Source: Natronorubrum halalkaliphilum
GTDB taxonomy: Archaea; Halobacteriota; Halobacteria; Halobacteriales; Natrialbaceae
Reading direction: 5' to 3'
DNA: 64,000 nucleotides
NCBI RefSeq assembly: GCF_009834785.1
Contig: NZ_WUYX01000029.1
Span: 1-64,000, forward strand
The notes below the pieces were generated by a model. It did no database searches and was not told where the DNA came from. It was given only the letters and a program-made list of their open reading frames with translations. The stretch's first letter is position 1. Each line of letters begins with the position of its first letter. Made by a program: the position numbers and the translations under genes. Shown piece by piece: positions 18,457 through 22,883 of the stretch.

Positions 18457-18619
18457 ACAGCGATATCCGTCGGCACTGCTCCGGCACGATTTTTCGGGTC
18501 TAGGTCCTCGGATCCCTGTTTTGCTGAAGCCTGTTATCTCCTCTAGTTGTCTTGTTCTCAGATTATTAAGATCGTCAACTTCATTACTAACGAGTCGTAA
18601 CTCTCGGCTGGTAACTATC

Positions 18620-19285
18620 ATGACCGCAAACCGACGATCGGCAACTCGCCGAAAACTGCTCGCAACATCCGGTTCGATCGCACTGGCTGGTCTCGCCGGC
18701 TGTGTGGGTGGTAACGAAGACGATGACGGAAACGGAGACGACGACGACGATCATGGCCACGACGACGACCACGATCACGACGATGATGACGACCACCTCC
18801 ACGTCGAGGAGTTCCATCTGCTCGACCGAGACCACGACGAAGACGTCATCGCGTACGTCCACGGCGACCACTGGGATCACGGTCCGCTGATGGTTCCGGA
18901 GGGCGACTACGTCTCGGTCGGTGCATACGTCGAAGATGACGACGGCCACGAGATCGAACTCGGCGATGGCCTCGAACTCGAGGCCGAGGAAGACGGAAAC
19001 GACATCCTCGAGATCGACTCGCACGGCGATCATCTCCACATCGAAGGAACCGAAGAAGGGTTCAGCGATCTCATCTTCCACCTCGTCGAGGACGGCGAGG
19101 TCGTCTACGAGACGCCCGACGGACATCCGCTCGAGGTCGAAGTCGGTGACGGCGAGCAAGAGTACACGGACCCGGACGACGGTCACGATCATGATCACGA
19201 CGACGACCACGACCATGATCACGACGACGACCACGACCATGATCACGACGACGACCACGACCACGATCACGACGACGATCACTGA
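18620..19285 (+). CDS. Tat lipoprotein with metal-binding domain and His/Asp-rich tail
   Basis: A 221-residue secreted lipoprotein. Twin arginines (RRKLLATSG) and a lipobox LAGC, with lipid-bearing Cys28, give Tat export and membrane anchoring. A His/Asp-rich linker (about 30-60) precedes a domain of about 115 residues (about 65-185) carrying HGDHWDH (His81, His84, His87) and GDHLH (His138, His140). The tail is four exact copies of DHDHDDDH (190-221). The same domain is inserted in the substrate-binding protein encoded next (18620 protein H-x-DHW, GDH and DGEVV motifs align). An extracellular zinc or manganese chaperone for the ABC importer is my inference. A TATA-like gattattaag lies at 18561. 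Confidence 0.85.
   Translation: MTANRRSATRRKLLATSGSIALAGLAGCVGGNEDDDGNGDDDDDHGHDDDHDHDDDDDHLHVEEFHLLDRDHDEDVIAYVHGDHWDHGPLMVPEGDYVSVGAYVEDDDGHEIELGDGLELEAEEDGNDILEIDSHGDHLHIEGTEEGFSDLIFHLVEDGEVVYETPDGHPLEVEVGDGEQEYTDPDDGHDHDHDDDHDHDHDDDHDHDHDDDHDHDHDDDH
19187..19282 (+). repeat. 24-bp tandem repeat coding DHDHDDDH, four copies
   Basis: Four near-identical in-frame 24-bp units (of the type gaccatgatcacgacgacga plus ccac) end the lipoprotein gene. The encoded octapeptide is perfectly repeated, while some units differ by synonymous changes (cat/cac). Such tracts can change copy number by slippage and would alter metal-buffering capacity. Confidence 0.85.
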
Positions 19286-19487
19286 TCTCGTCCCTGACCG
19301 GTAACCGCTGATTCGGGGGCTCGAGGTTCTACTTCCACCCCCACCGCTCCCGAAAGTCCTCCGGCACCTTTCAGTTGATCGACCGTCCAACGACCCTTGC
19401 TAGTTCACACCGAGCTAAGCGCCACAGGTTATTAACATCTGGTAAGAGAATAATAATCCTTTTACCCACTCATCCGTACTGTCGCGT

Positions 19488-20867
19488 ATGAAGCTGTCAC
19501 GCCGTTCGGTGCTACAAACAGGTGCCGGGGCGCTCGCGATCAGTACGCTCGCTGGCTGTCTGAGCGAGCCCGACAACGGGGACAACCCGGATGGGGGATA
19601 CGCGGCGTTTTTCACCCTCGAGGATTGGGCCGAACAGATCGCCGGCGACGAAATGAGCTTTGAAAATCCGGTTCCGGCAGGCGAGATGGGACACGGTTGG
19701 GAGCCGCCGGGCGACCTCCAGCGCGATATCGCTGAATCCAGCGCGTTCGTCTACCTCGAAACCGTCGAGTTCGCGTGGGCACAGGATGTCGCCGCCGACC
19801 TCGAGATCGACTACGACCACGTCGAACTGATCGACGGGATGGCGGGACTCGAGAGCCAGTTGCTCCCGTTGGGAGATGAGGAAGGTGACGGTGCCGATCG
19901 TCAACCGGACGAGTACGACGGCGATCCGACCGAGGTTTCAGTCGGTGGATTCGACGTCTACCACCGCTCGTCGGGGACGGAAGTCGCCTACTGGCACAAC
20001 GATCACTGGCACGGTGCAGTACCAGAAATTGCCGTCGACGGCAGCGTCGCCATCGACGGCATCTTCGAGGACGATGACGGTCGCGTCCTCCCGCTCGGTG
20101 AGGACGAACCGTTCCAGATCGACGCTCGCGTCGTCGATGGCGCGGACGAGGACGTCCTCACTATCGAAAGTCGTGGCGATCACATCGTGTTCCGCGGCCA
20201 CGAAACCGGCCGCACACGGATCGTCTTCGAACTGGTCGCCGACGGGGAAGTCGTCTGGGACACCAGCGCGGACAACATGAGCGTCGACGTTGTCGAAGAC
20301 GCCGAGCCACCCGAGTCCTACGACCCGCACGTCTGGGTCGACCCCGTCCTCGCACAGGACGTCGTCGAGACTATCGCCGACGGTCTCGCGGAGGTCGATC
20401 CGGACAACGCCGAGCTGTACGCCGACAACGCCGCCGAGTACAACGAACGACTCGAGGAGATCCACCAGCAGTTCGAGGAACTGGCTGCGGACGCGGATCG
20501 GAACCTCGCAATCCTCGCCGGCCACGACTCGTTCCAGTATCTCGAGCACCGGTACGACTTCGAGCTACACACGCCGGTAAACATCTCTCCCGACGCCGAT
20601 ATCACCGAGGAGGACGTCGCGGAGACGATCGATCTCGTCGACGAACACGGTATCGAGACGATCCTTTACGATCCGTTCGAGAGCCCCGATGGCGAACTCC
20701 CGGACACCGCCGAACTCATACTCGAGGGGAGCGGAGCCAGCGACGCGAAACCGATCAGTCCCGTCGAGGGAACGACAGAGGAGTGGAGCGACGACGACTG
20801 GGGCTGGGTCGAACAGATGGAGGAGTTGAACCTCCCGTCGCTTCGGCAGGCACTCGATGCGGAGTAG
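19488..20867 (+). CDS. ZnuA/MntA-type metal substrate-binding lipoprotein with inserted domain
   Basis: A 459-residue, Tat-exported lipoprotein (SRRSVL, lipobox LAGC, Cys24), cluster A-1 binding protein for Zn or Mn. Likely metal ligands are His69 (GHGWEP), His281 (DPHVWVDP), His346 (GHDSF) and an acidic residue in ILYDPFESP. It is longer than usual ZnuA proteins (about 300 residues) because residues about 150-270 hold an extra domain where ZnuA normally has a His-rich loop. This insert has HNDHWH (His170, 173, 175) and GDH (His232) and is homologous to the lipoprotein at 18620. ATPase and permease follow. Zn versus Mn cannot be decided. Confidence 0.92.
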   Translation: MKLSRRSVLQTGAGALAISTLAGCLSEPDNGDNPDGGYAAFFTLEDWAEQIAGDEMSFENPVPAGEMGHGWEPPGDLQRDIAESSAFVYLETVEFAWAQDVAADLEIDYDHVELIDGMAGLESQLLPLGDEEGDGADRQPDEYDGDPTEVSVGGFDVYHRSSGTEVAYWHNDHWHGAVPEIAVDGSVAIDGIFEDDDGRVLPLGEDEPFQIDARVVDGADEDVLTIESRGDHIVFRGHETGRTRIVFELVADGEVVWDTSADNMSVDVVEDAEPPESYDPHVWVDPVLAQDVVETIADGLAEVDPDNAELYADNAAEYNERLEEIHQQFEELAADADRNLAILAGHDSFQYLEHRYDFELHTPVNISPDADITEEDVAETIDLVDEHGIETILYDPFESPDGELPDTAELILEGSGASDAKPISPVEGTTEEWSDDDWGWVEQMEELNLPSLRQALDAE

Positions 20868-20999: not shown

Positions 21000-21740
21000 G
21001 TGAGTTCGGTCGTCGACATTCAGAACGTCTCGTTTGCCTACGGTGAGCAGACAGCCGTCGATGACGTCTCTTTGACCATCGAGGAAGGGGATTTCCTCGG
21101 ATTGATCGGCCCCAACGGCTCGGGCAAGACGACGCTGTTGCATCTCATGCTCGGCCTGCTCTCGCCCGACAGCGGCTCGATCGAACTGTTCGGTCAGTCC
21201 GTCGATTCCTTCGACCAGGGCGAACGGATCGGCTACGTCTCTCAGCAGGCGACCAGCCGCGGCGGCACCATGCCCGTCACCGTCCGGGAGTGCGTCCGGA
21301 TGGGCCGGTTCGCCCACGTCGGCCACTCGAGGCTGACCGACGAGGACCGCCGGATCGCCGAGGAGGCTCTCGAGACGGTCGATATTATGAATCTCGCGGA
21401 TCGTCGAGTCAACCAGCTGTCCGGCGGCCAGCGCCAGCGAGCGTATATTGCGCGGGCGCTGGCCTCGGAGGCCGACCTGCTCGCACTCGACGAGCCGACC
21501 GTCGGCGTCGATGCCGACTCTCGAGACGCCTTCTACCAGTTGCTGGATTCGCTGAACAATGCCGGGATTACCATCGTGCTGATCGAACACGACATCGGCG
21601 TCGTCACGGACCGTGCGAATCGTATCGCCTGTATCAATACGGAACTGTATCACCACGGCGACACCGAGTCGTTCGTCGAAAGCGACGCCCTGAGCGAAGC
21701 CTACGGTACGACGGGAACGGTCGTCCACCACCACCACTAA
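21000..21740 (+). CDS. metal ABC transporter ATP-binding protein (ZnuC/MntB type)
   Basis: A 246-residue ATPase with a GTG start. Walker A is GPNGSGKT (37-44), the signature is LSGGQRQRAYIARAL, and Walker B is LLALDEPTVGVD with IEHD following. The sequence matches the ZnuC/MntB subfamily that energises group A-1 metal importers. The C-terminus ends VVHHHH, which could bind metal and report cytosolic levels, although this is unproven. ggagtga at 20986-20992 is a good Shine-Dalgarno site for the GTG. The permease gene starts 3 nt after the stop. Confidence 0.94.
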   Translation: MSSVVDIQNVSFAYGEQTAVDDVSLTIEEGDFLGLIGPNGSGKTTLLHLMLGLLSPDSGSIELFGQSVDSFDQGERIGYVSQQATSRGGTMPVTVRECVRMGRFAHVGHSRLTDEDRRIAEEALETVDIMNLADRRVNQLSGGQRQRAYIARALASEADLLALDEPTVGVDADSRDAFYQLLDSLNNAGITIVLIEHDIGVVTDRANRIACINTELYHHGDTESFVESDALSEAYGTTGTVVHHHH

Positions 21741-21743
21741 TCG

Positions 21744-22883
21744 ATGAGTCAGCCTGAAGACACCGCCGTCGACCATGATGTCTCGAACACCGGTGGTTCG
21801 GCCCACGTCGCGTCCTCCGATCCGGTACGGACGCTCGAGCTCGTCGGCATCGGACTGGTCGGGGTGCTGGCGGCAGTGATGGTCGGTTTCATCGCGCTCG
21901 ACTGGCTCCGCCTGTATCCGTACGCTGACAGCTACCCGTTCGTCGAATCGCTGTACTCGGCGACGCGGATCGATCCCATAATCGGACGGCTCTTCGATCA
22001 ACTCATGATCGTCGGCATGTGGATGGACTACTACCTTGGAACAAACGTCTTCAAGCATCCGTTCATGTGGCGTTCGATCGCGACCGGCGTCCTCATCGGT
22101 GTCGTCGCTCCGCTGGTCGGCACCTATCTGGTCCACCGTCAGATGGCACTGATCGGGGAGACGCTCGCCCACACGGCGTTCGCTGGCGTCGCGGTCGGTA
22201 TCCTCGTCACCGGCTTTACCGGATTTGGCGGCTCCTTGCTGTTCGTCGCACTCATCGTGAGCGTGATCGGCGCGCTGGCCGTCCAGTGGCTCACCGAGCA
22301 AACAAGTACGTTCGGGGACGTGCCGATCGCCATCATGCTCAGCGGGAGTTTCGCCGTGGGGACGTTGCTCATTAGCTGGGCTCGAGGCACGGTTGCGGTG
22401 ACGATCGACATCGAGAGCTTCCTGTTCGGGACGCTCGCGGTCGTCACTCCGGGGGGCGCTCGAATGATGGCCGTGTTGAGCGTCGCCGTCGTCGCAATCG
22501 TCGCGTTCACGTACAAACAGCTGCTGTTCATCACGTTCGACGAACAGGCCGCACGGGTCGCCCAGCTCAACGTCAGGTGGTACAACACCCTGCTCGTGGT
22601 GATGACGGCGGTCGTCGTCGTCGGCGCGATGCAGGTCCTCGGCGTGATCCTCGTCGCCGGGATGCTCGTCATCCCGGTTGCGGCCGCCTCGCAGATCGCT
22701 CGCAGCTTCCGAGAGACGCTGTACCTCTCGATCCTGATCGGACAGGTGTCGGTGCTCGGCGGCTTCGCGTTCGCGATCAGCCAGAGCCTGCCCTCGGGCG
22801 GTTCGATCATCGTCGTCGCTATCGCGATATATCTCCTCGCGATCGCTCTCTCCGACCGGTCGCCCGCGCTCTCGATGCACTGA
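21744..22883 (+). CDS. metal ABC transporter permease (ZnuB/MntC type)
   Basis: A 379-residue permease of the ABC-3 family. The conserved core starts near residue 105 (PFMWRSIATGVLIG) and contains GTYLVHRQMALIGETLAHTAFAGVAVG and the late QVLGVILVAGMLVIPVAAASQIA block; about nine helices are visible. An N-terminal extension of about 100 residues with an extra membrane helix is unusual for the family. It forms the importer channel with the ATPase (3 nt upstream) and the lipoprotein at 19488. Transcription probably ends near palindromic element copy 2, 75 bp downstream. Confidence 0.92.
   Translation: MSQPEDTAVDHDVSNTGGSAHVASSDPVRTLELVGIGLVGVLAAVMVGFIALDWLRLYPYADSYPFVESLYSATRIDPIIGRLFDQLMIVGMWMDYYLGTNVFKHPFMWRSIATGVLIGVVAPLVGTYLVHRQMALIGETLAHTAFAGVAVGILVTGFTGFGGSLLFVALIVSVIGALAVQWLTEQTSTFGDVPIAIMLSGSFAVGTLLISWARGTVAVTIDIESFLFGTLAVVTPGGARMMAVLSVAVVAIVAFTYKQLLFITFDEQAARVAQLNVRWYNTLLVVMTAVVVVGAMQVLGVILVAGMLVIPVAAASQIARSFRETLYLSILIGQVSVLGGFAFAISQSLPSGGSIIVVAIAIYLLAIALSDRSPALSMH

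Follow-up and report, generated by a model that had tools for sequence, protein, structure and literature searches.

A shared domain of predicted Ig-like fold, free and built into a ZnuA-type receptor, as a candidate metal-capture module of archaea

The window, a stretch of 64,000 nucleotides from a Natronorubrum halalkaliphilum contig, contains a lipoprotein gene followed by the genes of a ZnuABC-type importer (Table 1). Both open reading frames singled out by an initial annotation of the sequence were located where it had placed them: the 18620 lipoprotein, hereafter P1, and the 19488 ZnuA-type receptor, hereafter P2. P1 consists of a Tat-type signal with a lipobox (RRKLL...LAGC), an acidic and histidine-containing linker, the domain considered here, and a His-rich tail, and it matched no Pfam or NCBIfam entry. 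P2 matched the ZnuA profile PF01297 above its cut-off across the receptor core. It keeps the receptor ligands H69 (GHGWEP), H281 (DPHVW), H346 (AGHDS), and D395, which were invariant in eight orthologues and whose role was assigned by comparison with known ZnuAs. Genes for a ZnuC-type ATPase and then a ZnuB-type permease directly follow P2.

Table 1. Positions of genes, domain copies, motifs and candidate operators in the window.
Feature	Position	Strand	Basis
Candidate operator WTANYAA-N14-WTANYAA, P1 promoter, 57 nt ahead of ATG	18563..18590	not assigned	pattern match
P1, stand-alone domain lipoprotein, 221 residues	18620..19285	+	translation
Domain copy 1, P1 residues 62-169	18803..19126	+	family profile E 1.1e-36; AF2 model pLDDT 91.4, Ig-like all-beta (predicted)
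HGDHW motif of copy 1 (H81, H84, W85)	18860..18874	+	invariant in 70 relatives
GDH motif of copy 1 (H138)	19025..19033	+	near-invariant
Asp/His repeat tail, C-terminal end of P1	19175..19282	+	sequence
Same candidate operator, znuA promoter, 59 nt ahead of ATG	19429..19456	+	pattern match
P2, ZnuA-type receptor lipoprotein with internal domain, 459 residues	19488..20867	+	PF01297 E 1.2e-44
Domain copy 2, P2 residues 152-264, ahead of DPHVW ligand motif	19941..20279	+	family profile E 6.7e-49; loop-site comparison
HNDHWH triad of copy 2 (H170, H173, H175)	19995..20012	+	invariant in orthologues
GDH motif of copy 2 (H232)	20175..20183	+	conservation in relatives and orthologues
ZnuC-type ATPase of importer	21000..21740	+	ABC_tran E 6.2e-34
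ZnuB-type permease of importer	21744..22883	+	ABC-3 E 2.1e-55

Residues 62-169 of P1 and 152-264 of P2 are one homologous domain. BLASTP aligned the two proteins over 135 columns with 37% identity (57.4 bits, E = 4e-14), and their Smith-Waterman score of 167 was reached by 0 of 2000 shuffles (mean 48.3, sd 7.7, maximum 86). Control scores were 62 with the reversed sequence and 39 with the receptor minus its insert. A chance alignment of two acidic proteins is ruled out by the shuffle and reversed-sequence scores. The initial annotation had proposed that one domain occurs both free in P1 and inside P2, and had named statistical failure of the alignment beforehand as grounds for abandoning this; the alignment stood up to both controls, and the family profile recovers both copies (1e-36 and 1e-48). 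The blocks it had listed (HGDHW or HNDHW, EDDDG, GDH, and DGEVV) all were found in both proteins in the same order. Its approximate limits of residues 65-185 and 150-270 held as an alignment and were refined by an iterative profile to those given above.

No Pfam or NCBIfam family was found for the domain in P1, P2, or 54 members. DUF2796, one identity considered beforehand, did not turn up in Pfam scans of P1 and P2 (E up to 1) or of the 54 members (E up to 0.1). Searching the PDB by sequence returned only short chance matches, the best having an E of 0.025. An AlphaFold2 model built from 19 sequences, without metal, was confident and all-beta (pLDDT 91.4, pTM 0.84), which predicts an Ig-like beta-sandwich. 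Its structural neighbours in the PDB, identified with Foldseek, were generic Ig-like/BIG2-like and S-layer domains (best E 6e-4), and query-normalised TM-scores were at most 0.60 among the matches shown. ZinT, the other identity considered, was rejected: PF09223 matched neither protein nor any of the 54 domains, and the model is not lipocalin-like. ZinT did not appear in the listed top 50 PDB matches of the model, and PF09223 was found in 0 of 97 haloarchaea searched. The domain is therefore distinct from ZinT, as had been suggested, with a predicted fold resembling Ig/BIG2-like sandwiches. It is real, matches nothing in the libraries searched, and is apparently undescribed. A bacterial family carries similar GDHADY-type repeats.

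Several histidines had been noted as conserved in both copies, and this extends to relatives. Across 70 domains, both histidines and the Trp of HxxHW were 100% conserved and the residues of GDH were conserved at 96, 97, and 83%; when the sample was enlarged to 115 domains, HxxHW stood at 96, 95, and 100%. About 80% of members have HxxHWH, that is, the HxxHxH form, with the third triad position being His in P2 (H175) and Asp in P1. A single-sequence query detected the domain in 72 of the 391 Halobacteria sampled, and a profile search in 16 of 79; it was also present in three methanogens of one genus, where mcrA is present. The majority of the loci examined have a domain-bearing znuA directly preceded by a free lipoprotein that contains the domain once or twice. 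Searching plasmids by protein gave nothing useful.

Domain copies also occur in other types of protein. Very large secreted proteins have one or two copies (L072 4485-9094, L073 2275-6529, L070 4817-9391, and L074 3710-6346), and in some of them one repeat lacks both histidines of HxxHW. These proteins also carry a repeated LLAETxxDHxHA...VWNVTxDG unit for which there was no Pfam family. A related gene, with PKD and CARDB matches in L072 and L073, adjoins the large protein in L070, L072, and L073. Three of the four loci also have a znuA gene. A membrane-anchored methanogen protein contains one domain copy (L077 5444-6619 and L080 5033-6208), and in L077 it adjoins formate-dehydrogenase-like genes.

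The insert had been placed where ZnuA proteins usually have a His-rich loop, and haloarchaeal ZnuAs without the domain bear this out. Most have an Asp/His-rich loop at the same site, directly ahead of the DPHxW ligand, and some have a short linker. By this sequence comparison, the domain in P2 takes the place of the Asp/His-rich loop of other haloarchaeal ZnuAs. Two arrangements are telling natural intermediates. In genome G370, a free domain lipoprotein adjoins a receptor that has a long His-rich loop and no domain. In the genome studied here, a second receptor has the domain flanked by His-rich stretches (L011 3664-5142, contig 63663-65141). This gene, at 63.7-65.1 kb, straddles the right edge of the window and is followed by a permease and then urease genes, with no ATPase gene in between. 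The same genome has a third ZnuACB-type importer (L134 5186-7943, contig C45), whose receptor lacks the domain. In a tree of receptor cores, domain-bearing receptors formed two clades of 47 and 4 members, which requires two changes, while a single clade of all inserts was not rejected in the tree of the short domain (AU p 0.446). Together the trees are compatible with either two gains or a gain and a loss. Because the model of the full receptor was poor (pLDDT 67), it does not fix the place of the domain relative to the cleft.

The P1 and znuA promoters share a phased pattern, WTANYAA-N14-WTANYAA, that we regard as a candidate zinc operator. There were 3 matches in the window versus 0.00 expected, although this test is not independent, since these very promoters and related ones served to define the pattern. 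More weight falls on the whole-genome and cross-species counts. The whole genome contained eight sites versus three for the reversed pattern. Among relatives, the operator lay 59-60 nt upstream of 34 of 45 domain-bearing znuA genes and ahead of 23 of 27 free domain genes, mostly by 57-58 nt, with these counts inflated by the kinship of the loci. It was absent from the four second-group receptor genes (described below) that were tested (L011, L065, L071, and L082) and from two diverged domain copies tested (L081 and L083). In the organism's own genome, it also precedes a CobW/COG0523 GTPase gene (L142 192-1466), a truncated cobW (L139 1563-1982), and an amidohydrolase gene (L146 1581-3005). COG0523 proteins are tied to zinc homeostasis, and co-regulation with znuABC has been predicted for one in methanogens, the two forming a predicted archaeal zinc regulon; archaea are reported to be without a recognisable Zur (PMC2770081). 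Given that the operator is common to both promoters, occurs in most relatives, and precedes a CobW/COG0523 gene, the lipoprotein and znuA genes probably belong to one zinc regulon.

Contrary to what the initial annotation anticipated, the domain is not confined to ZnuA inserts and their neighbours. We found it also in urease-linked receptors, in proteins directly upstream of CbiM cobalt/nickel importers, and in the very large secreted proteins, and one further copy adjoins a protein that weakly matches Fe2+ transport. Receptors assigned to the second domain-bearing ZnuA clade, the second group, stood at urease genes in 7 of 10 loci (G000, G064, G033, G104, G141, G132, and G390), with 4 of the 10 placed on the receptor tree and the rest assigned by context and weak similarity to the main clade. 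Some of these urease loci also hold a transporter, which we rejected as a nickel importer: UrtA and UrtB exceeded their NCBIfam cut-offs and UrtD was the best match, identifying a urea transporter. One locus has two consecutive open reading frames that both match the urease alpha subunit (L071 8307-11788). Since urease requires nickel, this metal is the likely ligand of the urease-linked receptors, judging from context. In the haloarchaeon G217, a two-domain protein lies ahead of CbiM and CbiQ, and in the methanogens G428 and G485 such a protein is directly ahead of CbiM. G428 additionally has CbiD and a corrin methylase upstream of the two-domain protein, and a NikL-family gene follows. Diverged copies (VHWHHWHF or VHYHHWHF) lie beside a DUF7350 protein (L130 6466-8309 and L131 5917-7544), which in L130 also has the weak match to Fe2+ transport (PF10634). 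With relatives adjoining nickel and cobalt genes, the domain would seem to be a module that archaea use at the cell surface to catch metals in general.

Comparable accessory domains are known from bacteria. In Streptococcus, the surface protein PhtD binds zinc at an HxxHxH site and hands it to AdcAII, a ZnuA-type receptor encoded in the same operon as Pht (PMC3842936). P2 has this form of triad (H170-N-D-H173-W-H175). However, Pht units are short three-stranded repeats (PF04270), whereas here the domain is of about 110 residues, Ig-like by prediction, and also found inside a receptor; 2 of 54 members touched the PF04270 profile and none exceeded its cut-off (best E 0.011). ZinT and the ZinT-type C-terminal domain of AdcA likewise act on metal outside the cytoplasm as accessories, either on their own or as part of a cluster A-I receptor, and have a three-His site open to Co and Ni. 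In AdcA this domain aids uptake, and a His-rich loop lies at the interface (PMC7858048). Yet ZinT is lipocalin-like and fused C-terminally, while the domain here is predicted to be Ig-like, is internal to P2, and sits at the loop site; P2 scored far under the cut-off of the AdcA model (79.6 of 700 bits). Export, control by Zur, and an Ig-like sandwich characterise ZepA, a zinc-uptake protein of cyanobacteria and other bacteria that is reported absent from Archaea (PMC10957091). It may resemble the present domain in export and in fold, judging from our model and the published description. Its site reads H-X2-9-H-F/Y-H, and that of the present domain HxxHWH. ZepA differs in having PEP-CTERM and a second domain and not being built into ZnuA, where P1 has one domain and ends in an Asp/His repeat. 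NikK and NikL are accessory parts beside CbiM/NikM in Ni/Co ECF importers, much as the methanogen domain protein adjoins CbiM and NikL, but the domain matched no NikK-type model in Pfam or NCBIfam.

By analogy with Pht-AdcAII and ZinT-AdcA, the reading we favour, with a probability of roughly 0.6, is that of a histidine-triad capture domain of different fold that would bind divalent metal outside the cell and pass it to importers. This reading draws on the invariance of HxxHW and near-invariance of GDH across a varied family, and on the fit of HxxHWH to the zinc-binding triad of Pht (PMC3842936). It draws also on the substitution of a His-rich loop and a folded domain for each other at one site, with a mixed form in the second receptor, and on the pairing of free domain genes with znuA, which is conserved and in G370 involves a loop-type receptor. 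The operator common to both promoters and the CobW/COG0523 gene, and the independent metal contexts of urease, CbiM/CbiQ, and NikL, argue in the same direction. Against capture stand the Asp at the third triad position of P1 and the fact that Ig-like domains are often plain spacers. The metal-free structure model, the poor model of the full receptor, and the operator counts inflated by kinship weigh on the same side.

Under the capture reading, the domain would be an extracytoplasmic divalent-metal module in which HxxHW[H/D] and the strand histidines of GDH/GDHxH form a site for Zn2+. Metal shortage would act through the shared operator to turn on the lipoprotein and znuACB together. P1, with its His-rich tail, may then gather zinc and raise its concentration at the membrane. 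In P2, the internal copy that stands in place of a flexible His-rich loop would hold zinc beside the binding cleft and pass it to H69/H281/H346/D395, from where ZnuBC would import it. Other members of the family may play the same role for nickel at urease-linked receptors and for cobalt or nickel at CbiM importers. The initial annotation had envisaged a dedicated metal-handing domain serving as both carrier and receptor part. Its free and inserted forms are borne out, the restriction to a ZnuA setting is not, and metal binding, the identity of the metal, its transfer, and a response to zinc are what we infer.

The same histidines could serve purposes other than delivery. The domain might buffer or store zinc, or gate the receptor and so regulate uptake under plentiful zinc. 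Metal storage would suit the Asp/His tails, and a regulatory role has been proposed for ZnuA His-rich loops, going by the title of one paper. We consider this rather unlikely given that the presumed operator groups the domain with uptake genes and a COG0523 GTPase, as a shortage response would, and that its occurrence together with urease and cobalt importers points to supply. Somewhat less probable still is a structural or docking Ig module (a spacer, dimer interface, or contact to the permease or cell wall) whose histidines aid folding or interaction and bind no transported metal. The generic character of the Foldseek neighbours fits such a role, as do the Trp being the most conserved residue and the large-protein repeat without both histidines. 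However, both histidines are 95-96% conserved in free, inserted, urease-linked, and cobalt-linked copies, and the contexts repeatedly involve transition metals.

It is also conceivable, although very improbable, that a metal other than zinc (Mn, Ni, or Co) is chiefly bound and that ZnuA is only a family label. Both Mn and Zn types are known among cluster A-I receptors, one receptor clade stands at urease, relatives occur at cobalamin genes, and SirR is predicted to control cbiM and zurA-type genes in Halobacterium (PMC3600143). Against this, no Ni or Co gene adjoins the window's own locus, its operator also precedes the CobW/COG0523 GTPase gene, and a search for the operator at four second-group receptor genes gave no match.

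At about even odds, we would extend the capture reading to one undescribed archaeal family of Ig-like metal-capture domains. Such a family would serve importer classes that are unrelated to one another: zinc uptake by ZnuABC, nickel receptors linked to urease, cobalt/nickel uptake by CbiM ECF importers, and possibly iron/copper proteins of the P19 type. It would include two ZnuA-type clades with the domain at the same loop site, through two gains or a gain and a loss, and in haloarchaea its control would lie with a zinc regulon so far unrecognised, whose operator consists of two palindromes.

An accessory metal domain of an importer receptor is a known kind of use, but the insertion site is unusual and the metal context is wider than first described. 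How scarce zinc is held and handed over at the surface of archaea that lack an outer membrane and ZinT is little studied. Since a folded module here stands in for a disordered His-rich loop, the role of this loop, long debated, becomes open to test. Judging by the urease and CbiM contexts, several metals may share one hand-over step outside the cytoplasm, and through the shared operator the zinc regulator of haloarchaea could be sought.
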